DNA of 50,648 nucleotides from Veillonellaceae bacterium (GTDB lineage Bacteria; Bacillota; Negativicutes; JAAYSF01). Location of the stretch: the NCBI GenBank assembly GCA_012523975.1, contig JAAYSF010000004.1, forward strand, positions 1 through 50,648, written 5' to 3'. Positions 1 through 44,877 of this stretch are shown here, piece after piece. The stretch's first letter is position 1. Every line of letters begins with the position of its first letter. The translations under genes and the position numbers were made by a program. The notes under the pieces are model-generated. The model saw only the letters and a program-made list of their open reading frames with translations. It did no database searches and was not told the origin of the DNA.

Positions 1-489
1 GCCATTGATATTATCAGCAAGGCTATTGGTGAAGAAGAACGCGGTGCCGCTTTACATACTTCTTTGGCCCGCCAGCTTAACGAAGTACAGCGCCTCATTA
101 CTCAGGCACCTCCCAAACGCATGTTTTTGGAAGTATGGGATAAACCGCTTTTAACGGTTGGCAGGGACTCCTTTATCAACGATATTATCATTCGCGCCGG
201 CGGCATTAATGTGGCAGCCGGCAAAAACGTTGATTACCTGTCCTGTGACATAGAAACACTATATTTTTATAATCCCGAAATTTATGTCGTCCTTAGTCAC
301 TATCGAAATGATACTCGCTCTTTGATAATAAGACCTGAGCTGTCAGATATTATGGCCGTTAAAAACGGCGAGGTTTACCAGATTGCCGACGATTTACTGG
401 CCAGGCCGGGGCCCCGCAGTTTTATCGGCTTGGTAGAGCTGGCAAAAATTCTTCATCCTGCAGCAATGAAAGATTGGGAGAATAAATGA
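1..489 (+). CDS. btuF: BtuF-like ABC transporter substrate-binding protein, 3' part
   Basis: The reading frame is open from the first base, so this is the C-terminal 162 residues of a larger protein whose start lies outside the window. The visible part matches the C-terminal lobe of class III periplasmic binding proteins for cobalamin or siderophores, with GGINVAAG near the middle and a closing stretch on ARPGPR. Such proteins deliver ligand to a BtuC2D2 importer. Its TGA stop overlaps the next gene's ATG (ATGA), so the two are translationally coupled. Corrinoid specificity is inferred from cbiZ in the same operon; haem or siderophore binding cannot be excluded from this fragment. Confidence 0.85.
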   Translation, partial: AIDIISKAIGEEERGAALHTSLARQLNEVQRLITQAPPKRMFLEVWDKPLLTVGRDSFINDIIIRAGGINVAAGKNVDYLSCDIETLYFYNPEIYVVLSHYRNDTRSLIIRPELSDIMAVKNGEVYQIADDLLARPGPRSFIGLVELAKILHPAAMKDWENK

Positions 490-1502
490 GACAACTAACA
501 CACAAAAAATTAATCCTTGTCAGTATCTCTGCACTTTTTCTGGCAGTTATCGCCCTTGGAATGCTCACCATCGGCACTGCCAATGTTCCCTTTAACACAG
601 TAGCTCATGTTATGGCTAAACAACTGTTAGGTCTGGATAATATTGATATTTCCTCTACCCAACAAACAATTGTCTGGAATATCCGCTGGCAGCGCATCGC
701 TCTGGCAATGATTGTCGGCAGCGGCTTGGCAGTATCGGGGGCCTGCTTTCAGACTATGTTTAAAAATCCATTGGCCGACCCCTTTGTTTTGGGTGTTTCA
801 TCCGGTGCGGCCCTGGGGGCAGCAGTAGCTATTATTACCCACTCACCTAATATGACGATTGTTTTTGCCTTCAGCGGTGCTATGCTCAGTCTGTCGCTGG
901 TATACCTTTTAGGTCTGAAAGGCATGCATATTCAATCTGATCAGCAGCTGCTGCTGGCTGGGATTGCCTGCGGCGCCATGCTGAATGCCATGTTAAGCTG
1001 CCTGATGGCTTTAAACTCTCAGCAAATGCAGACAATTATGTTCTGGCTGATGGGCAGTCTTTCAAATTATAGTTCAAGCCTCAAACCGGTACTCGCAATT
1101 GTCGTCTGCGGCCTGATAATTGCTATGATTTATGCGCGTGATTTAGATGTAATGGCCCTTGGCGATGAAGATGCCCAGTTTCTCGGGGTTGATGTCAAAA
1201 AAGTAAAGTTCACTTTGCTTATATCAACCACCTTAGTGACAGGGGCCTGTGTCTCGGTGAGCGGTATTATCGGCTTTATCGGTCTGATAGTACCGCATCT
1301 CGTCCGCAAATTGGCCGGACCGGAGCATTTGCTCCTCCTCCCGCTTAGCGCAATTTTCGGCGCAGCCTTTCTTCTTTTAGCCGATGGCTTAACCCGCCTC
1401 CTCCCATTAATGTCAGGCATTCCGGTCGGAGTAGTCACCGCGCTGTTTGGCAGCCCATTTTTCTTGTATGTGCTGTGTACCTTGCGAAGGGGGTCACATT
1501 GA
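486..1502 (+). CDS. btuC: FecCD/BtuC-family ABC importer permease
   Basis: A 338-residue, very hydrophobic protein of the usual length for this family. It forms the inner-membrane channel of a type II ABC importer. Family hallmarks are visible: a central GACFQTMFKNPLADP segment followed by GVSSGAALGA, and a C-terminal GFIGLIVPHLVR segment that contacts the ATPase. The start overlaps the binding-protein stop by 4 bases. The stop overlaps the start of the ATPase gene by 1 base (TGATG). Substrate is inferred to be a corrinoid from the operon. Confidence 0.92.
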   Translation: MRQLTHKKLILVSISALFLAVIALGMLTIGTANVPFNTVAHVMAKQLLGLDNIDISSTQQTIVWNIRWQRIALAMIVGSGLAVSGACFQTMFKNPLADPFVLGVSSGAALGAAVAIITHSPNMTIVFAFSGAMLSLSLVYLLGLKGMHIQSDQQLLLAGIACGAMLNAMLSCLMALNSQQMQTIMFWLMGSLSNYSSSLKPVLAIVVCGLIIAMIYARDLDVMALGDEDAQFLGVDVKKVKFTLLISTTLVTGACVSVSGIIGFIGLIVPHLVRKLAGPEHLLLLPLSAIFGAAFLLLADGLTRLLPLMSGIPVGVVTALFGSPFFLYVLCTLRRGSH

Positions 1503-2272
1503 TGGACATTCTGCAAATACAAGCCCTAGATGTGGGCTATAGTTCCAATACGGTACTGCGAAATATCAACCTAACCGTCAAGGCAGGAGAATTTGTCAGC
1601 GTAGCCGCCCCAAACGGCACCGGCAAATCCACCCTGTTAAAAACAATTGCCGGATTATTGCCGCCGCTTAACGGATCAATTTTGCTCAACGGCCAAACGG
1701 TGGCAGATTACAGCCGCCGCGAGCTGGCTAAACAAATCGCTGTCGTAAGCTCGGATGTTGCCGCACCGGATTACACAGCCTACCAGATGGTCTTGATGGG
1801 GCGGTTTCCTCATGTCTCACGCTTCGCCGGCTTAACAGACCAAGACCATTTTGTTGTCCGGACTTCAATGAAAGATGTGGATATTTGGAAAAAACAAGCA
1901 TGCCGGTGCAGTGAGTTAAGTCAAGGTGAACGGCAAAAAGTCATTATTGCCCGCGCCCTGGCCCAACAACCTAAACTATTATTACTTGACGAACCTACCG
2001 CTCATCTTGACATCTGCAACCAGTACAGCATTCTCCACCTCATAAAAAAATTGGCTCTGCAAAAAGACATCGCGGTTATCGCCGTTATTCACGATATTAA
2101 TTTGGCAATTCAATTCAGCACTCATCTTTTATTATTAAAAAACGGCCGGTTGTTGTCATATGGCCGACCGGCGGAAGTCATAACTGCTGAAACATTAAAC
2201 CAGCTCTACGATATGGATTTCGCCTTATATCATGAGGCAGCAGCCACATATGTAAGACCAAACCTATTTTGA
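1502..2272 (+). CDS. btuD: BtuD/FecE-type ABC importer ATP-binding protein
   Basis: A 256-residue nucleotide-binding subunit that powers the BtuC-type permease. Walker A is APNGTGKST (the usual first Gly is Ala), the signature is LSQGE, and Walker B is LLLLDEPTAHLD, followed by the switch His in AVIHD. An in-frame start 27 bases upstream (1475) exists, but the ATG at 1502 is preceded at good distance by AAGGGGG and overlaps the permease stop, so it is preferred. Fe(III)-siderophore import is the main alternative to corrinoid. Confidence 0.92.
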   Translation: MDILQIQALDVGYSSNTVLRNINLTVKAGEFVSVAAPNGTGKSTLLKTIAGLLPPLNGSILLNGQTVADYSRRELAKQIAVVSSDVAAPDYTAYQMVLMGRFPHVSRFAGLTDQDHFVVRTSMKDVDIWKKQACRCSELSQGERQKVIIARALAQQPKLLLLDEPTAHLDICNQYSILHLIKKLALQKDIAVIAVIHDINLAIQFSTHLLLLKNGRLLSYGRPAEVITAETLNQLYDMDFALYHEAAATYVRPNLF

Positions 2273-2303
2273 TAAAAAAGGTTTAAATATAGGGGGGTAA
2301 ATT

Positions 2304-4130
2304 TTGAGAAACAGAAACTTAACCAAAAAAATTGCCGCAGCCTTGGCAGCCGGTACTTTATTGTGTACAACCCAAGCCTGGGCCAGTGAAGACTCAATTT
2401 TTCAACTTGATCAAATAACCGTTACGGCCGACCGTATCGTCCAAACGGTAGGTACTACTCCGGCCAACACCACGGTAATAAGCGGCGCCGATTTACAGAA
2501 CAAAGGCGCCCATACACTGGCTGATGCCTTACAGGGTGTCACCGGGGTCACCATTCGCAATTATGGCGGTACCGGTCAAAAAGCCATTCCCTATATGTTA
2601 GGAACTGACCGGGTTGTCGTGCTAATCGACGGTAAACGGATGAATCTGCCGCAAGGTATCGGGACCGGCAGCGGTGGTGTAGACTTAAATACTTTCATAC
2701 TTGGTGATAACATTGACCGCATCGAGGTTGTTCACGGCGGTGCGTCTGTCCTATATGGCGCCGACGCAGTCGGCGGAGTAATCAATATCATTACCAAAAA
2801 AGGTGATACCTCGACCAAAACGACGACAAGCATAGCCGGCGGCAATGACGGTGCCCGATACTATGCTTTGACAACCGGCGGCCAAGAAAAAAATACGCGT
2901 TGGTATTTTTCCGGTATACAGGACTCAAATGACGGGCAACGTGCCAATAGCAATTACAAAGGGAAAAATGCCTCGTTTAGGATTGACCATGACTTAACTG
3001 CACAAGAAAACCTCACTTTTACATATGACTATTATGACAGTCATGCCGGAATTCCCGGCTCCCTAACATACCCGTCTCTAACCGATTTTCAGGACATTCT
3101 GCGGCGCAATTGGAGTGCTGGCTATACCAAACAGCATCAAGACGGCACTCGTACTTTCCGCTATTATAATAACGATCAAGTGTATTCCGGCGAGAACTAT
3201 GGCTACTTCCGACATCACAATACTGTGAAAGCGCTTGAGTATCAGGATAGTACCAGCCTCGACCAAGACAACCTGATTACCTGGGGCGGCGAATGGCGCA
3301 AGGATGAAGTAACAAGCACTGCCGAAGGCAACATTTTGCGCAAAGGCATTACCAAAGCACTGTTTATCCAAGACAAGTACAGCCTAAATCCTGCGGCAAC
3401 GTTAACAGTGGGACTGCGGCGGGATGATAACAGTATTTATGGCGCACACTGGCTGCCCAAAGCTGCTTATCTATATCAAGCAAGTCCTACCACCAGCTAT
3501 TTTGCTAATTGGGGCAAAGTCTTCAAAGCTCCTAAATTTGACGATTTATACGGTGATGACGGCTGGGGCAATACCGGTAATCCTGATCTAAAACCGGAGA
3601 CCGGCTGGACGGCTGAGGTTGGAGTAAAAACAAAATTAACACCTAATCACGAAGCTATCTTGTCACTATTTAAGCGCAATCTTAATAATGCGATTGACTG
3701 GGAGTATATTGGCAGCGGCAAGTATAGACCGAACAATATTGATAACTATCGGGCAACCGGTGTAAACGTCAGCCTGACAAGCAAGCTGAATGCTATTACA
3801 ACTACCGAAATCGGCTATACCTATCTCGACAGTCATGACCAAAACAATAAAGACCTTGGCGATCCCCGCCATAGCTTTAACATTGGCATCAACATCCATG
3901 ACGGCAAACTATCACAAACTGTTAACGGCATATATCAAGCTAAAAGCGGTTCGTCCGGCGCGAAAGTCGACGGCCGGTTTATCGTAAACACCAATACAAA
4001 TTATTCGATTGATAAGGATACTTCTTTATTCTTAACGATTAACAACTTGTTTGATAAGAACTATCAAAGCGTATACGATTACCCGGCAAACGGCCGGACT
4101 ATTCTGCTGGGTGTTAAGCAGTCATTGTAA
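2304..4130 (+). CDS. btuB: TonB-dependent outer-membrane receptor, BtuB-like
   Basis: A 608-residue receptor that moves ligand across the outer membrane using TonB energy. It starts at TTG behind AGGGGGG. Residues 1-27 are a signal peptide ending in QAWA. A TonB-box-like QITVTADR follows near residues 34-41, then the plug domain (about 45-170) with DALQGVTGV and RIEVVHGGASVLYGADAVGG. The remainder is a 22-strand-type barrel of alternating aromatic strands. The C-terminus is Leu rather than the Phe typical of Gram-negative barrels. The gene sits between the ABC importer and cbiZ, so the ligand is probably a corrinoid. A gene of this class requires an outer membrane, which is informative for the host lineage. 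Confidence 0.9.
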   Translation: MRNRNLTKKIAAALAAGTLLCTTQAWASEDSIFQLDQITVTADRIVQTVGTTPANTTVISGADLQNKGAHTLADALQGVTGVTIRNYGGTGQKAIPYMLGTDRVVVLIDGKRMNLPQGIGTGSGGVDLNTFILGDNIDRIEVVHGGASVLYGADAVGGVINIITKKGDTSTKTTTSIAGGNDGARYYALTTGGQEKNTRWYFSGIQDSNDGQRANSNYKGKNASFRIDHDLTAQENLTFTYDYYDSHAGIPGSLTYPSLTDFQDILRRNWSAGYTKQHQDGTRTFRYYNNDQVYSGENYGYFRHHNTVKALEYQDSTSLDQDNLITWGGEWRKDEVTSTAEGNILRKGITKALFIQDKYSLNPAATLTVGLRRDDNSIYGAHWLPKAAYLYQASPTTSYFANWGKVFKAPKFDDLYGDDGWGNTGNPDLKPETGWTAEVGVKTKLTPNHEAILSLFKRNLNNAIDWEYIGSGKYRPNNIDNYRATGVNVSLTSKLNAITTTEIGYTYLDSHDQNNKDLGDPRHSFNIGINIHDGKLSQTVNGIYQAKSGSSGAKVDGRFIVNTNTNYSIDKDTSLFLTINNLFDKNYQSVYDYPANGRTILLGVKQSL

Positions 4131-4145
4131 AGAAAGAGGTCTGCC

Positions 4146-5129
4146 ATGGAAAACCAGTTTCTCAAGAGCGGCGGGGCGTTAAAGGTTGATGACCAGTTTA
4201 TTATCTGTACCTTCCCGTCTCCCCGTTTGGTTTTAAGCACTTCCTTGTACAACGGCGGTTATCTAATGGCCGATGCCGTATTCAATCATCGCTTAAGTAT
4301 GTTTGTAAACAGTGAACATGACCTGCCTGGCGGCAGTATGGAAAATTACCTGGAAATCATGGCCAAGGAGCGCGGCTTAAACGGTGAGCGCTCCACCGGC
4401 CTATTGACAAGCGCCCGGATGAATTGCCGCGCTTATAGCATTTCAACCTTCAATGACCTGATTGTCGAGGTTGTGGCCACAGCTGGAGTAGATAAAAATG
4501 CCGCGCGGGCCGGTGATGCGGGCTGTTATTTTGAAAACAACGGCAACTATCAGCCAATTGGCGGCACAATCAACATTCTGGCTTTTACAAATATTAAAAT
4601 GCCATATGGTTCAATGGCCAAAGCCCTTCTCAGCATTACCGAAGCTAAAACTGCTGCCTTGCAGGAGTTGGCTATTGCCAGCCCTTTAACCCAAAAGCCG
4701 GCTACCGGCACCGGTACTGACGGCGTCATCCTTGTCTGCAATCAGGACTCGCCGTTAATTTGCCGGGATACGGGAACACAATCAAAGTTAGGCGAGCTCT
4801 TTTGTACTGCTGTTAAAACGGCCGTTAAGCAGTCATTGGCTTTAGAATGTGATATTTCTTCAGCTAGCCAAGGTGCATTGCCCCAACGCCTATGCCGGTC
4901 GGATCTGTTTACATCCCTAACCCCGGAACAAATAGCAGCATCGAAAAACAGCAAAATATTACTGGCAGCCAGCCAATCGATTTGGCAGGAATACTGTTGG
5001 GGCCTGTTGGACGCAAGCGATGTATGCCACTTTATCCAAATGATGAAGGCTGAATCCAATCAGCCCTGCGGAACAATGATAGCAGCTGAACTACAAAGAA
5101 AAATAAGTAATACTGCAAGGAGTAGGTAA
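4146..5129 (+). CDS. cbiZ: CbiZ-like adenosylcobinamide amidohydrolase
   Basis: A 327-residue protein resembling the CbiZ family. CbiZ hydrolyses the aminopropanol amide of adenosylcobinamide to give adenosylcobyric acid, so imported incomplete corrinoids or corrinoids with a foreign lower ligand can be rebuilt. Diagnostic features are TEAKTAALQEL (about residues 165-175) and ATGTGTDGVILVC (about 187-199). The family core is roughly residues 20-230; the C-terminal 90 residues are less familiar. No signal peptide is evident, so it is probably cytoplasmic. AAAGAGG precedes the ATG. Its place between receptor and ExbB supports the corrinoid reading of the whole operon. Confidence 0.83.
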   Translation: MENQFLKSGGALKVDDQFIICTFPSPRLVLSTSLYNGGYLMADAVFNHRLSMFVNSEHDLPGGSMENYLEIMAKERGLNGERSTGLLTSARMNCRAYSISTFNDLIVEVVATAGVDKNAARAGDAGCYFENNGNYQPIGGTINILAFTNIKMPYGSMAKALLSITEAKTAALQELAIASPLTQKPATGTGTDGVILVCNQDSPLICRDTGTQSKLGELFCTAVKTAVKQSLALECDISSASQGALPQRLCRSDLFTSLTPEQIAASKNSKILLAASQSIWQEYCWGLLDASDVCHFIQMMKAESNQPCGTMIAAELQRKISNTARSR

Positions 5130-27106: not shown

Positions 27107-27402
27107 TAAATAAACACATGAATCATCGATGACCAGGAAGAGTAAACATTACTCAGAGGGTTTCAGCGAGCCAACGGCGGTGAGAGGTTGGCACTACTCG
27201 ATATGTTGAATGGGCCTGGGAGATACAGTCCGATCCACTTTGTGGGGTAGGCGCTGTCGGAATCTTCTACCGTTAACAAGAAGCGGGTATCGGACCAATG
27301 GTCCCGTACTTAGTAAGCCGGGCTGTACATACAGCCAATTAGGGTGGCACCGCGGGTTAACCCCTCGTCCCTATCTATTAAGATAGGGATGAGGGGTTTT
27401 TT
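27107..27402 (+). promoter_or_regulatory. T-box leader, tryptophan specifier (UGG)
   Basis: The leader carries the T-box core AGGGTGGCACCGCGG (27341-27355) and then a 16-bp terminator (27361-27376 with 27381-27396) and six T. In stem I the lower helix is CCAGG (27133-27137) with CCTGG (27215-27219), and the upper helix is AACAT (27145-27149) with ATGTT (27203-27207). Between them AAGAGTA faces GAATGGG, so the specifier is UGG at 27211-27213, the Trp codon. The bulge base in UGGC pairs with a G discriminator, as expected for tRNA-Trp. Uncharged tRNA-Trp would therefore switch on the transporter genes downstream. Confidence 0.9.
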
Positions 27403-27432
27403 GGTATTCAAATAAAGGAGGAATGATGTGTA

Positions 27433-28020
27433 ATGGAACTCAAAAACCAAAATCAAGAAATGACTGCTTTCGAAACTAATAAAGGTGGCAACTATCGTTG
27501 GGTTACAATCACCACTTTACTCCTGGCGATCGGCGCTATACTGCATCTAATCAGCCCCAGCATCGGCGGGGTAACACCAAACTGGACTATTGCTATGTAC
27601 TGCATTGCTATTAATCTGACCAGACCGACACTCGGCCAATCTCTCGGTATTGGCCTTGTAGCAGCGGCCATTAACATACCGACCTCAAAATCAGCTTTTC
27701 CTTATGGCAACCTTTTAAGCGAACCAATTGGAGCTTTAGTCTGCGCTATCATTGTCAGTCTTTCGGTAAGCATGACAATCGGGAACTTCAACTTAAAACC
27801 TGGTGTGAGCGGCTTTTTAAGCACAGTGGCCAGCGGCATGGCCTTTGTAACGCTTTTAAAAGTTGTCCTGTCACTCCCCATGGAAGTTTATCTTTACGCC
27901 ATGATTCCAGTTGTCTTTACAGTTGCAGCGCTAAACGGCGCTATTACCCAAATCCTCTTCTTCCCAGCCCAAAAACTTTTCAACCTAAAAGGAGACAGCA
28001 ATGGCAGCAATAACCTTTAA
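27433..28020 (+). CDS. trpP: TrpP-like tryptophan transporter S component
   Basis: A 195-residue membrane protein with about 6 helices. AIGAILHLISPSIG, KSAFPYGNLLSEPIGA and the C-terminal AALNGAITQILFFP match the layout of TrpP and ECF substrate-binding components. Followed directly by two ATPases and a T subunit, it is the likely specificity subunit of an ECF importer. The Trp T-box upstream makes tryptophan, or a close precursor, the best candidate substrate. AAAGGAGG lies 11 bases before the ATG. The stop overlaps the next gene. Confidence 0.8.
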   Translation: MELKNQNQEMTAFETNKGGNYRWVTITTLLLAIGAILHLISPSIGGVTPNWTIAMYCIAINLTRPTLGQSLGIGLVAAAINIPTSKSAFPYGNLLSEPIGALVCAIIVSLSVSMTIGNFNLKPGVSGFLSTVASGMAFVTLLKVVLSLPMEVYLYAMIPVVFTVAALNGAITQILFFPAQKLFNLKGDSNGSNNL

Positions 28021-28864
28021 CAATTTCAGTTACGCCTACAAACATACGCAAAAAGCGCTTGATAATATCAGTATCACTGTTGAGCAAGGCTCCTTTACAG
28101 CCGTAATCGGCCGAAGCGGTGCCGGCAAGACAACGCTTTGCCTAGCTGTCGCCGGTGCCGTACCCCACTATTTTGGTGGCAGTCTTGCGGGAAGTGTTAC
28201 CGTTGATAACATGTCGACCCAGACTACCGCCATGCATGATTTAGCCCAATCAGTCGGCACGGTGCTCCAAGATTATGAGACCCAACTAGTCACCATGACT
28301 GTTGAAGAAGAGGTTGCCTTTAGTTTAGAAAACCGCGGCCTTGGCAGGAATGAAATCGCGGCTTGTGTATCGGAAACCCTGGCCAAAGTCGGCCTTACCG
28401 GCTTTGAAAAAAAGGAAGTTTCTGCATTGTCCGGCGGCCAAAAACAACGTTTGGTCATTGCCAGTGTCCTGGCTTCCAACCCTAAAATCTTAGTACTTGA
28501 CGAGCCGACTTCGGCCCTTGACCCTGAAGGTACCGAATCAATATATAAATTGCTTGCTGAACTAAATAAAGAGTACGGCATCACCATTATCGTTGTCGAA
28601 CACGAAACAGCCAGGGTTTTACCATATGCCGACCAGTTTATCCTCATGGAAAATGGTCAGTGTATCCAAAGCGCCGACCCAGACCAAGTTCTTACCTATA
28701 TGTGGAAACATCAAATATATACCGAAGCTATTCCACCGCTGTGGGAGCTTAAGCTAACCCTGCAGGACCAAACCGGAGTCCGGTTTAGTGCTTGGCGCAA
28801 TGAACAGGACGCCGTAGATGAACTGCGCAAGGCCTTGAAAAAGGAGGCCTGTATAAGTGCTTGA
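28001..28864 (+). CDS. ecfA1: ECF transporter ATPase (EcfA, first copy)
   Basis: A 287-residue ABC ATPase. Walker A is GRSGAGKTTL, the Q-loop is VLQDYETQL, the signature is LSGGQKQRL, and Walker B is ILVLDEPTSALD, followed by the switch His in VEHE. It pairs with the next ATPase to energise the ECF module. The gene overlaps the S-component gene by 20 bases. AAAGGAG sits before the ATG. Confidence 0.92.
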   Translation: MAAITFNNFSYAYKHTQKALDNISITVEQGSFTAVIGRSGAGKTTLCLAVAGAVPHYFGGSLAGSVTVDNMSTQTTAMHDLAQSVGTVLQDYETQLVTMTVEEEVAFSLENRGLGRNEIAACVSETLAKVGLTGFEKKEVSALSGGQKQRLVIASVLASNPKILVLDEPTSALDPEGTESIYKLLAELNKEYGITIIVVEHETARVLPYADQFILMENGQCIQSADPDQVLTYMWKHQIYTEAIPPLWELKLTLQDQTGVRFSAWRNEQDAVDELRKALKKEACISA

Positions 28865-29699
28865 ATTGAAAAATGTCTGCTTCGCCTATAAAAAACAGGC
28901 TCCAGTAATTAATGATGTTTCTCTGACCATAAAACCCGGCGAATTTTTAGCAATCGCCGGACGCAACGGCAGTGGCAAAACTACCCTAACCCGCCTGATT
29001 ATGGCGCTCAGAAAGCCGTCTTCAGGTGAAATTACCTTAGATGGCTGTTCTACTAAAAAGTTTGGTCCGGCCGAAATGGCGCGGAGTATCGGATATGTTT
29101 TTCAAAATCCTGACCGCCAGATTTTTCGGGATACAGTAGCTAGCGAAGTTTCTTACGGGCCAGAGCAGTTAGGATATGCTCCGACTCTAACCGCGGAGCT
29201 TGTCAGCCAGGCTCTAGCAGCTACCGATTTAACCGAGCTGGCGTCCGCTTATCCGCCTTCACTGTCGCGCGGGCAAAAGCAGCGTCTGGCAATAGCCTCC
29301 GCCTTGGCGATGAAGCCTAGAATGCTCATCCTAGATGAGCCTACCAGCGGTCAGGATGGCCGCGAACGGGACCAGTTGATGAAGCTATTAACTAAATTAA
29401 ATCAGCAGGGGCTTGCCATATTATTGATAACGCATGATATGGACCTGTTAGCGGCCTATGCCAAACGGGTTGTTGTCATGGATAACGGCTCTAAAGCGTT
29501 TGACGGAAGCATAGCAGAGCTTTTCGCTGATGCCTGCCGGCTTAAAAAGTGGGGTCTAACCGAACCTACCGTTATAAACATATCACAAGCTTTAGCCAAT
29601 TACGGCATTACAACGACAACCTCGATCAGTGAATTAAGCAATAAATTAATTGATATTCTGGGGAGGAACACCCATGCAAAAGACAGCTCCGCTTACTAA
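28857..29699 (+). CDS. ecfA2: ECF transporter ATPase (EcfA, second copy)
   Basis: A 280-residue ABC ATPase starting with GTG behind AAAGGAGG. Walker A is GRNGSGKTTL, the Q-loop region is YVFQNPDRQIF, the signature is LSRGQKQRL (Arg in place of the first Gly), and Walker B is MLILDEPTSGQD, followed by ITHD. It overlaps the first ATPase gene by 8 bases. It is probably a heterodimer partner. Confidence 0.92.
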   Translation: MLELKNVCFAYKKQAPVINDVSLTIKPGEFLAIAGRNGSGKTTLTRLIMALRKPSSGEITLDGCSTKKFGPAEMARSIGYVFQNPDRQIFRDTVASEVSYGPEQLGYAPTLTAELVSQALAATDLTELASAYPPSLSRGQKQRLAIASALAMKPRMLILDEPTSGQDGRERDQLMKLLTKLNQQGLAILLITHDMDLLAAYAKRVVVMDNGSKAFDGSIAELFADACRLKKWGLTEPTVINISQALANYGITTTTSISELSNKLIDILGRNTHAKDSSAY

Positions 29700-30342
29700 A
29701 TTGATTCTCACCGTCTTTGTTACCATATGGGCAATTATGCTCGAATCAATTCCCGCCCTCGCAATCTTAATCGGAGCACAATTGCTTATTCTCATACTGT
29801 CCAGAGTCAACGCTAGCATCTACAAAGGCGTAGCTAGTTTACTCCTTTTTGCAGTTATGCTCGGCATCCTGCAGTATGTATTTAATAGTGATATCACGCT
29901 TGCAGCTTTAACTGCTCTTAAAATGACGGCCATGACGCTAATTTTCGTAATCTTACTGACTACAACCAGAATGCAGGATTTGTCAGCAGCCTTAGTTACC
30001 CAGTGCCGTGTCCCTTATGAATATGCCTTTATGCTGACAGCCGCACTGCGGTTTATCCCGGACTTTTTGGCAGAAAGCAAATCAATCCAAGAGGCTCAGG
30101 CCTGCCGCGGTTTTTCAGCCGGCGGTAATCCCATAACCCGCCTGACCTCCTATATGGCAATAATTAAACCACTTGTTTTAAAAGCTGTCGGCCGCTCCGA
30201 AACAATGGCTTTAAGCCTTGAACTGCGCGGTTTCGGCAGCAAACGAACCCGTAGTTTTAGCACCAATGTTGCGCTAGCTACAATCGATTATGCTATGCTG
30301 GCTGCAATGGTAGCAGTTACAGTCGGCCTTGTAATAATATAA
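29674..30342 (+). CDS. ecfT: ECF transporter T component (EcfT)
   Basis: A 222-residue membrane protein with about 5-6 helices. It carries the two coupling motifs of EcfT, ACRGFSAGG (about 142-150) and ELRGFGSK (about 181-188), which contact the ATPases. The start at 29674 has GGGGAGGAAC upstream and lies inside the preceding gene, a normal translational coupling. An in-frame start at 29650 lacks a ribosome site. Confidence 0.9.
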   Translation: MQKTAPLTKLILTVFVTIWAIMLESIPALAILIGAQLLILILSRVNASIYKGVASLLLFAVMLGILQYVFNSDITLAALTALKMTAMTLIFVILLTTTRMQDLSAALVTQCRVPYEYAFMLTAALRFIPDFLAESKSIQEAQACRGFSAGGNPITRLTSYMAIIKPLVLKAVGRSETMALSLELRGFGSKRTRSFSTNVALATIDYAMLAAMVAVTVGLVII

Positions 30343-41339: not shown

Positions 41340-41502
41340 CTTTACACCTCATTTATAAGCTTTTTCAGCAATTCGGAAATATTTTTATAAGACTGATATT
41401 GGCTATATAGTTAGTATTTTACCATGAATAACTTTACTTGCCCATTTTTGACTTTACACATTACTTGAGTAGATGTAAAATTAGGATAGAATAATAATAT
41501 TG

Positions 41503-41583
41503 GGATAGCTAGGGGTGCCAATGGCTGAGAGGAGATTACTCCAACCCTCGAACCTGAAGTGGTTAGAACCACCGTAGGAAAGC
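41503..41583 (+). promoter_or_regulatory. TPP riboswitch
   Basis: The thi-box landmarks are in order: AGGGGTGCC (41511-41519), GGCTGAGAG (41523-41531), ACCCT, GAACCTGAAGTGGTTAGAA and CCGTAGGAA (41572-41580). It lies directly before thiC. Bound thiamine pyrophosphate should favour the terminator that follows. Confidence 0.93.
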
Positions 41584-41595
41584 TTCGCTTAACTT

Positions 41596-41622
41596 AAGCT
41601 TACTTACGGGTAGGCTTTTTTG
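41596..41622 (+). terminator. Riboswitch-controlled terminator
   Basis: AAGCTTAC (41596-41603) pairs with GTAGGCTT (41610-41617), one G-T pair, followed by a T run. It is 50 bases before the thiC start and is the expression platform of the TPP switch. Confidence 0.8.
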
Positions 41623-41671: not shown

Positions 41672-42970
41672 ATGTACACAACTCAAATGGATGCTGCAAA
41701 GAAGGGCATAATCACAAATCAAATGCGCGTCGTAGCCGAAAAGGAAAAAATCGAACCTGAAACTTTGCGTAACCTAGTCGCTGAAGGTAAAGTTGCCATA
41801 CCGGCAAATATAAATCACACCAACCTTAGCCCTGAAGGCATCGGGCAAGGACTTCGCACCAAAATCAATGTTAATCTCGGTGTTTCAAAAGACTGCAATG
41901 ATGTCGAATTAGAGATGAAAAAGGCTGCAAAGGCAATCGAACTAAAAGCTGAGGCCATTATGGATCTTAGCTGCTTCGGTAAGACTGAGGATTTCCGGCG
42001 CAAGCTGGTTGCTTTTTCCCCTGCTATGATTGGAACTGTTCCGATGTATGACGCTGTAGGAATGCTTGATAAGGATTTGAAAGACATTACCGTGGATGAG
42101 TTCTTCTCGGTTGTTGAAAAACATGCTCAAGACGGCGTAGACTTTATGACAATTCACTGCGGCATGAATCGTGCAACTGCCGAACGGGTTAAACGAAATA
42201 AGCGCCTTACTAACATTGTTTCACGGGGCGGTTCATTGCTTTTTGCCTGGATGGAACTTAATAATCAGGAGAATCCGTTCTACGAACACTTCGACAGACT
42301 GCTTGATATTTGCGAGAAATACGATGTAACTTTAAGTCTGGGCGACGCCTGCCGTCCCGGCTCGATTAATGACTCTACTGATGCCGCCCAAATCGAAGAA
42401 CTGATTACCCTTGGCGAGCTGACCAAAAGAGCTTGGGCCCGAAATGTCCAAGTTATGATCGAGGGTCCCGGCCACATGGCATTAAATGAAATAGCCGCAA
42501 ACATGCTCTTAGAGAAAAAACTCTGCCACGGCGCACCATTTTATGTTTTAGGGCCAATTGTTACCGATGTCGCGCCAGGCTACGATCATATAACCAGTGC
42601 AATCGGCGGGGCGATAGCCGCAGCAAGCGGAGCTGACTTCCTTTGCTATGTAACACCGGCTGAACACCTCCGGCTGCCGGACTTGGATGATATGAAGGAA
42701 GGTATAATCGCAGCGCGAATCGCCGCCCATGCCGCCGATATTGCCAAAGGCATCCCGGGAGCACGGGAATGGGATAATCAAATGAGCCAAGCCCGGGCTG
42801 ACGTCAATTTCCCGCGGATGATCGAATTAGCAATCGACCCAGAGAAGGCCAGAAGATATCGGGAATCCTCCCGTCCGGAATGCGATGACACCTGTACCAT
42901 GTGTGGTAAAATGTGCCCGATGAAAAATATGAAGAAAATCTTAAACGGTGAGGATTTAAGTATAATCTAA
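41672..42970 (+). CDS. thiC: Phosphomethylpyrimidine synthase
   Basis: A 432-residue radical-SAM enzyme that makes the thiamine pyrimidine from aminoimidazole ribotide. It has [11 protein letters not shown], the FMTIHCGMN segment, [25 protein letters not shown] and [14 protein letters not shown]. The C-terminal cluster motif is [10 protein letters not shown]. The length fits the short bacterial form. The upstream TPP riboswitch gives feedback control. GAGGATGG precedes the ATG. Confidence 0.97.
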
Positions 42971-43034
42971 ATTCAAGCCTTGCACCTCTCCCGACTACTC
43001 AACATATTATGAAAATACGTTAAGTGGAAGGGAG

Positions 43035-43469
43035 ATGGTAAAATTTAATCCGGCGAAGCTTACGATAACCTATAAAGGAGTCACTGACGACGGGCCAATT
43101 TGCCCCAGACATTACACTCTGACCCGCTCTGAGACTCAAGATGATTTATTTCTGACGATAGATTCAAACCCACTGCTGGCGGAAGTTTCAGCTGCGTGGG
43201 ATGACAGCGGGGGAACCTACTCACTTATTGTTCGCGCCCGCGTAGACAGTATCCATGACCGAAAGACAGAAGTGCAGCAGCGTTATGATGATTTAAACCG
43301 ACAGCTTCCCTTGGTACTCGAGGCAATTCGTTATGGCGACAGCAAGTTTTTTAATAACCATGCTGAATTAGATTACGCACCCATCTTTGTCCACTTTATT
43401 TCTGTCTACCCCGAGTTTGGAGCAGTGAAGTATTTCGGCCAGCCGCTAGACTATTTATTTATACATTAA
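43035..43469 (+). CDS. Staygreen (SGR)-family protein
   Basis: A 144-residue cytoplasmic protein resembling the staygreen family. It shows FNPAKLTITY, GPICPRHYTLTRSETQDDLFLTI and LEAIRYGDSKFFNNHAELDYAPIFVHF, the last being highly characteristic. Plant staygreen removes Mg from chlorophyll a, and some bacterial homologues have been reported to do the same in vitro. This host shows no sign of making chlorophyll here, so the physiological substrate is unknown. It starts 64 bases after thiC with no terminator between, so it may be under TPP control. GGAAGGGAG lies close before the ATG. Confidence 0.8.
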   Translation: MVKFNPAKLTITYKGVTDDGPICPRHYTLTRSETQDDLFLTIDSNPLLAEVSAAWDDSGGTYSLIVRARVDSIHDRKTEVQQRYDDLNRQLPLVLEAIRYGDSKFFNNHAELDYAPIFVHFISVYPEFGAVKYFGQPLDYLFIH

Positions 43470-43474
43470 ATTCA

Positions 43475-43510
43475 AAAGAGCCATTACCGTTAAATAGGTA
43501 ATGGCTCTTT
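43475..43510. terminator. Bidirectional intrinsic terminator
   Basis: A 14-bp perfect stem (43475-43488 with 43497-43510) with an 8-base loop, between the convergent staygreen-family gene and brnQ. Confidence 0.88.
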
Positions 43511-43521
43511 ATTGTACTTCA

Positions 43522-44877
43522 TTAGACAGATTCAGGCTCTTCTGCCGGGCTCGATCCAGTGGTGACTAGCGATATAATATAACCAAGCACAGCGCCAACG
43601 ATGGCCGGAACAACCCAACCCATGCTAGCATCAAAGAACGGCAGATACTTGCTTAGCAGCGAGTTAACGGCGCTTATTGAAATACCCGCCGCGTTCAGAC
43701 CGTCAACAACGCTCAAGATAACGGTAAAGAACATACTGCCGCGATATACCGCCGAACGTCCGCCAAACAAAGGCTCAAGGAAGGACAGCAAGATCAGGAC
43801 AATTACCATCGGATAGATGGTTACTAAGACTGGTACCGAGAAAGAAATTAGCTGGGTTAAGCCAACATTTGAAACTACAAAACTGAAGAAGGAGAAAATA
43901 AAGACTAGCTTCTTATATGACAAACGCGGAAAGTACTGACTGAAGAAGGCTGCACAAGAAGAAACTAAACCGATACTGGTAGTAAGGCAGGCAAATACAA
44001 TCGACAGGCCTAACACCACATTGCCAAGCGAACCGTAATAAACATTGGCTACTTTAGATAATATCACGCCGCCGTTAGAAGCTTGACCGATTGCCGCTAC
44101 GCCGGTAGCGCCAAGATACGCCAGCGAAACATATATTAAAGCCAGACAGCTGACTGCAATCAGACCAGCGACAGTGCAAACTTTAGTAATCCGCTTAGGG
44201 TCGGTTACACCCTTGTCCTTTATTGAGTTAATAACGATAATGCCAAAAACCATTGAGGCCAGAGTATCCATTGTAAGATATCCCTCACGGAAGCCCTTTA
44301 ACAGCGCACTGTTAGCATATTCACCAGTCGGCGCCTGCAGCATGCCGAGCGGGTTAGTGAAGGCTTTTATTACCAACAGAAACAGTACTATCAGCAGAGC
44401 CGGAGTAAGAATCTTACCAACCCTGTCAACGATTTTGCTTGGATTGAGCGCTAACCAGCAAGTTGCCACAAAAAAGAGTGCTGTGTAGATAAACAAACCC
44501 AGACCGCCAGTAGCGACATCACCGCTAAGAAACGGTCTGATACCTACCTCGTAAGAAACTGCACCTGTACGGGGAATCGCAAACAACGGGCCGATTGTCA
44601 GGTAAGTGCTGATGGTCAGAATGGCTGCAAATAACGGATGCACCTTTTTCGCCAATACCTGAGAATCATTGCTGCCCGAAAAACCGATTGCCAATACACC
44701 CAGTAACGGCAAGCCGACTCCGGTCAGCAAAAAGCCGGTTATTGCCGGCCATAAATTTGTACCAGCATCTTGACCTAATGCCGGCGGAAATATCAAGTTG
44801 CCGGCTCCAAAGAACAATGAGAACAACATTAAGCCTATTGCTAAAGTATCTCTAAAAGATATTTGCTTTGAGCTCAT
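43522..44877 (-). CDS. brnQ: Branched-chain amino acid carrier BrnQ
   Basis: A 451-residue, 12-helix ion-coupled transporter for Leu, Ile and Val. It starts with DTLAIGLMLFSLFFGAGNLIFPPALGQ, the BrnQ signature, and has LDTLASMVFGIIVINSI-type and FACLTTSIGL segments. It stands alone; no regulatory leader is obvious in the 130 bases upstream. Confidence 0.93.
   Translation of the reverse strand: MSSKQISFRDTLAIGLMLFSLFFGAGNLIFPPALGQDAGTNLWPAITGFLLTGVGLPLLGVLAIGFSGSNDSQVLAKKVHPLFAAILTISTYLTIGPLFAIPRTGAVSYEVGIRPFLSGDVATGGLGLFIYTALFFVATCWLALNPSKIVDRVGKILTPALLIVLFLLVIKAFTNPLGMLQAPTGEYANSALLKGFREGYLTMDTLASMVFGIIVINSIKDKGVTDPKRITKVCTVAGLIAVSCLALIYVSLAYLGATGVAAIGQASNGGVILSKVANVYYGSLGNVVLGLSIVFACLTTSIGLVSSCAAFFSQYFPRLSYKKLVFIFSFFSFVVSNVGLTQLISFSVPVLVTIYPMVIVLILLSFLEPLFGGRSAVYRGSMFFTVILSVVDGLNAAGISISAVNSLLSKYLPFFDASMGWVVPAIVGAVLGYIISLVTTGSSPAEEPESV

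Follow-up and report, generated by a model that had tools for sequence, protein, structure and literature searches.

A staygreen-family protein with replaced catalytic residues encoded behind thiC in a Veillonellaceae bacterium

The gene directly behind thiC in the DNA analysed here (the window, a stretch of 50,648 nucleotides) encodes a protein of the staygreen (SGR) family in which all three catalytic positions are replaced. It is probable, though not strongly so, that this SGR has impaired dechelatase function and stands behind thiC by accident of position. Computation established the family, the fold, the substitutions, the gene orders that include or lack the gene, and a predicted hairpin; from these we infer loss of activity, co-transcription with thiC, poor translation and the absence of a thiamin role. 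The features of the locus are as follows.

41501..41597, + strand: TPP riboswitch aptamer (RF00059) in the thiC leader (cmscan 61.1 bits, gathering score 54.3)
41596-41617, + strand: terminator-like hairpin behind the TPP riboswitch (terminator scan)
41672..42970, + strand: thiC, hydroxymethylpyrimidine phosphate synthase, 432 aa (ORF; relatives)
42984..43037, + strand: predicted RNA hairpin (folding) with the weak Shine-Dalgarno sequence and the staygreen start codon in its 3' arm; loop near AUUAUGAAAAU
43035..43469, + strand: staygreen-family protein (PF12638), 144 aa (Pfam profile and AlphaFold2 fold)
43475..43510, + strand: intrinsic terminator 3' of the staygreen ORF (perfect 14-pair stem)
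43522..44877, - strand: branched-chain amino acid transporter of the BrnQ family, convergent neighbour (PF05525, E 1.4e-160)

Family membership, fold and active site

The ORF at 43035-43469 starts with ATG and runs through 144 intact codons with no stop or frameshift. Its product matched the Staygreen profile PF12638 at 110.5 bits (cut-off 27; E 8.5e-32) over residues 3-140, and the match spans the whole profile (1-147 of 147), confirming the original prediction of a staygreen homologue. PF12638 was the sole Pfam family matched, and no NCBIfam model matched up to E 1. The nearest solved structure by sequence is 7y5y (E 2.1e-16), that of AbSGR-h, the Mg-dechelatase homologue from Anaerolineae bacterium SM23_63 (PMC8531759, PMC11006732), which is 37% identical over 139 residues and alike in fold. 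Structure prediction, which had been proposed as a check, gave a confident AlphaFold2 model (53 homologues; mean pLDDT 91.4, pTM 0.85). It superposed on this bacterial SGR with Z 21.6 and an rmsd of 1.6 Å over 139 aligned residues, and the second-best chain in the structure search reached Z 5. Given the profile match, the sequence match to 7y5y and the superposition, the ORF product is securely a true member of the staygreen family.

The active site of AbSGR-h has been proposed to consist of H32, D34 and D62 (PMC11006732). Mutants D34N and D62N are soluble and inactive, H32A has weak activity, and R26, Y28, T29 and D114 are required for solubility (PMC8531759). All four solubility residues are kept in the ORF product, as R25, Y27, T28 and D102, whereas H32, D34 and D62 are replaced by R31, E33 and A49, respectively. 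The assignment of A49 to D62 is anchored by the E-V next to A49 and by the invariant W55. Two further residues differ from AbSGR-h (R61 to L48 and T36 to Q35), and the segment from strand 3 to 'DEV' is shorter than in AbSGR-h by about 12 residues; the loop after residue 45 of the ORF product is about seven residues shorter than in other Bacillota. YTLTRSE had been taken for a family motif. The family sequence is in fact YTLTHSD, and the changes from H to R and from D to E affect two members of the published catalytic triad. Plant STAY-GREEN proteins (SGR/SGRL) likewise belong to PF12638. In AtSGRL the counterparts of D34 and D62 are Asp107 and Asp132 (PMC8531759); by this published correspondence, E33 and A49 stand in place of the two aspartates in the ORF product.

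The three catalytic positions are otherwise highly conserved. They are H, D and D in 99, 100 and 98%, respectively, of 111 canonical homologues, a set biased by having been fetched partly with a THSD-containing pattern. Among 38 sequences found by Pfam profile only, 33 have H at the first position, 35 have D at the second and 34 have D (with E in another four) at the third, and four further Clostridia-type sequences all carry HSD and RDE. Exceptions are a clade of three loci, L143-L145 (RSL, RES), as well as L146 (YSD, YDC) and L149, which also has Y. In the ORF product, columns conserved at 90% or more are changed at 5 of 10 pocket positions against 3 of 28 elsewhere (Fisher P = 0.019, for 38 columns and a pocket list predicted on a model that predates the crystal structure), so that 25 of the 28 conserved non-pocket columns are kept. 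In the light of the published AbSGR-h mutants, none of which is exactly D34E or D62A, Mg-dechelatase activity of the ORF product appears to be lost or impaired. A residual or different activity is possible, since E33 retains a carboxylate and D34E is absent from the mutants of PMC8531759 and PMC11006732.

The thiC locus and the start of the staygreen gene

The arrangement behind thiC is as originally described: 64 bases separate the end of thiC (42970) from the start of the ORF (43035), no terminator-like site lies between the two genes and a good terminator follows at 43475-43510. With a TPP riboswitch upstream, it is plausible that the staygreen gene is co-transcribed with thiC under riboswitch control. 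The terminator/promoter scan also revealed a promoter-like site at 42885-42912.

Conservation of this adjacency in relatives, which had been put forward as a test, was surveyed and is not seen. A ThiC homologue is present in 23 of 25 relatives, the best outside the bacterium's own genome being 90% identical. In the sister genus (G001, with ThiC 90% identical), a phosphoesterase gene, the riboswitch, thiC, the terminator and brnQ occur in identical order without a staygreen gene. There the TPP riboswitch of the thiC leader is conserved, thiC runs directly into the aligned counterpart of the 43475-43510 terminator (L099) and the BrnQ-family gene, 80% identical in L099, also adjoins thiC. Conversely, thiC was near staygreen in 0 of 80 named loci (flanks up to 6 kb) and 0 of 49 further loci (flanks about 1.5 kb), and no staygreen gene adjoins thiC at the loci of the remaining relatives. 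With one outgroup, either a gain here or a loss in the sister genus would account for the difference. An imperfect 23-base direct repeat (78%) flanks the staygreen block at 42954-42976 and 43453-43475; it could reflect an insertion or deletion event, or be due to chance.

No recurrent neighbour family of staygreen emerged from clustering of 905 neighbour ORFs or from a Pfam scan of the 107 nearest neighbours. Matches to 'Thi4' among these neighbours were rejected as thiamin genes: FAD oxidoreductases account for them, through weak cross-matching of the Rossmann fold.

The start region of the gene is unusual. A 54-base hairpin at 42984-43037 has a predicted stability of -23.3 kcal/mol (z -4.2), which none of 200 shuffled sequences equalled. 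It still forms in longer folds, and both the AUG and GGGAG are paired in it. Of 37 start regions compared in the window, it ranks in the top three for start pairing and ties for second in stability, the comparably strong regions being those of uncertain TTG starts. Only one of 79 homologues has an equally stable start hairpin. The sole bases resembling a Shine-Dalgarno sequence, AAGGGAG, directly abut the start codon, and no Shine-Dalgarno match of at least four bases occurs at a spacing of 4 to 11 nt, whereas 66 of the 79 homologues have one of at least four bases at normal spacing (in a rough scan that scored the most favourable start among those nearby). With the ribosome site and start codon both inside a stable predicted hairpin and the Shine-Dalgarno sequence misplaced, translation is probably weak, or opens conditionally; hairpins that cover a start codon can also serve regulation. 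The possibility that the hairpin is a repeated element was rejected, as it has a single copy in the genome. Its 5' arm is partly common to the 3' end of thiC in the sister genus.

Relatives of the protein and the tetrapyrrole context

In a phylogenetic tree the ORF product nests within Bacillota sequences, its exact place being unsure where long branches meet. Its own branch, 1.51 long where the median end branch is 0.14, is among the longest in the tree. Canonical Bacillota SGRs, among which it is nested (Sporomusa, Clostridium, Bacillaceae and Heliobacterium; 'staygreen family protein' in RefSeq), are 38-49% identical to it over the full length. Unlike the ORF product, they keep THSD and RDE and a loop about seven residues longer, have no thiC neighbour that could be found and mostly have a normal Shine-Dalgarno sequence. 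Both other genomes of the same family are without a staygreen gene. Across about 1,200 genomes sampled from the class, the phylum and three more classes, none of the HMM-found members has the R/E/A pattern. A scan of contigs by pattern used THSD or LALxA..GD, which close relatives with RSE and LVLEA could escape. In viral contigs, patterns able to detect only close relatives found no relative of the ORF product, and plasmids yielded only four homologues, all distant, in Peribacillus, Cytobacillus and Priestia. The SGR of the ORF is most likely patchily distributed and fast-evolving. A single sequence gives no dN/dS, and codon usage of its frame is no better than that of alternative frames, a weak test at 144 codons.

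In the clade of L143, L144 and L145 (G985, G964 and G920; three species), CIRSL together with ARES or VRES replaces LTHSD and MRDE. Judged by these residues, the dechelatase triad was lost here a second time, separately. It resembles the ORF product in the change of H32 to R, the loss of D34 (here to Leu) and a changed 61-63 segment (RES). It differs in being a distant, separate lineage with an AbSGR-h-like long loop and other replacements. Staygreen copies that appear to be decaying also occur in the family: an in-frame stop lies within the matched stretch in Clostridium drakei (L041, 6001-6447), and likewise in L002 (G003).

Heliobacteria are phototrophs with bacteriochlorophyll g. Staygreen homologues were found in Heliobacterium mobile (L076), Heliobacterium chlorum (L092) and also at L123-L124, and the copies at L076, L123 and L124 have the full catalytic triad. 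Heliobacterial staygreen is a possible dechelatase in phototrophic Bacillota.

A search of the Veillonellaceae bacterium's genome for a CobN/BchH-type (Mg-chelatase H) homologue found none. There is thus no hint that (bacterio)chlorophyll is made through the CobN/BchH route, in support of the view that nothing here suggests chlorophyll. A CbiK-type cobalt chelatase is present. The corrinoid salvage genes noted in the window are indeed there, as an uptake and salvage cluster at 486-5129 (FecCD, an ABC ATPase, a TonB receptor and CbiZ), unlinked to the staygreen ORF and about 38 kb from it. In a second set of transport genes, at 27120-30342, a T-box leader (RF00230) precedes a TrpP-like transporter gene, behind which come two ABC ATPases and a CbiQ-like permease. 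The set resembles an ECF-type transporter under T-box control that would carry tryptophan or a compound related to it.

Competing explanations and significance

In the reading we favour, the protein has retained the SGR fold while its published Mg-dechelatase site is lost or altered, through the five replacements (H32 to R, D34 to E, D62 to A, R61 to L and T36 to Q) and the short pocket loop. The gene, which occurs between thiC and the thiC terminator in its own genus only, would have been inserted there or lost in the sister genus. It is probably the second gene of a TPP-riboswitch unit by position and not by thiamin function, with translation probably weak or conditional through the start-codon hairpin. 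The product is most likely a fast-evolving, dechelatase-impaired pseudoenzyme copy, either decaying or recruited non-catalytically, for example for tetrapyrrole binding. A more elaborate version, in which a triad-less SGR lineage forms a tetrapyrrole- or metal-binding pseudoenzyme controlled by the TPP riboswitch and gated in translation by the hairpin, is a distant prospect.

The original prediction envisaged a working metal-tetrapyrrole dechelatase tied to thiamin or corrinoids. The genomic context was as described; the functional part is weakened by the replaced catalytic residues, by the absence of the thiC adjacency from the other loci surveyed and from the sister genus, and by the distance to the corrinoid genes. 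An active enzyme with a rebuilt site, in which E33 serves as metal ligand in place of D34 and R31 alters specificity, possibly in favour of a tetrapyrrole with Co, Ni or Zn that belongs to the anaerobe's own metabolism, would fit the kept fold, the preservation of most surrounding pocket residues and the conservative nature of the D to E change, and the CbiK-type chelatase and corrinoid salvage genes imply that non-chlorophyll metal-tetrapyrroles exist in this organism. However, D62, essential in AbSGR-h, is Ala, three relay residues have changed together, the loop is short and the homologue neighbourhoods examined show no linkage to tetrapyrrole genes, which leaves such an enzyme unlikely. 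Membership of the thiamin regulon, with the protein working alongside ThiC or in thiamin-linked metal or radical-SAM repair and co-regulated by the TPP riboswitch, is the least supported of the readings and very improbable. It would explain the short same-strand gap, the single terminator behind both genes and the riboswitch ahead of them, but the adjacency is unique to this genome among the loci surveyed, the sister genus does without the gene despite a ThiC that is 90% identical, the start codon is hidden by the hairpin and the promoter-like site permits separate transcription.

Alternatively, the gene might be an SGR gained by horizontal transfer that is now functionless and in the early stages of becoming a pseudogene, with its catalytic residues and ribosome site already eroded. 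The long branch and loss of the triad, the misplaced Shine-Dalgarno sequence and the start codon in a hairpin, the absence of the gene from the other genomes of the family and the undistinguished codon usage (weak evidence in so short an ORF) all agree with this. Against it stand the uninterrupted reading frame, the retention of conserved columns outside the pocket and the confident fold, and we regard it as quite unlikely. A gene long dead is argued against by an ORF that is intact, full length and has nearly all structural residues kept. Impaired dechelatase function in a protein placed behind thiC by accident is the reading to which we return.

Staygreen in non-photosynthetic bacteria, including Bacillota, is already published and named in RefSeq, and the physiological role of bacterial SGR homologues has been described as unknown (PMC8531759). 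Relative to PMC8531759 and PMC11006732, what is new is an SGR in which each of the three catalytic positions has changed and the fold residues remain, and also a second independent clade with a like loss (L143-L145). Having arisen in nature, the R/E/A variant of the H/D/D site can serve directly to test which residues are essential. A staygreen annotation by itself does not imply a dechelatase, and a position behind thiC under a riboswitch is not to be taken as function, since the sister genus carries the same block without the staygreen gene.
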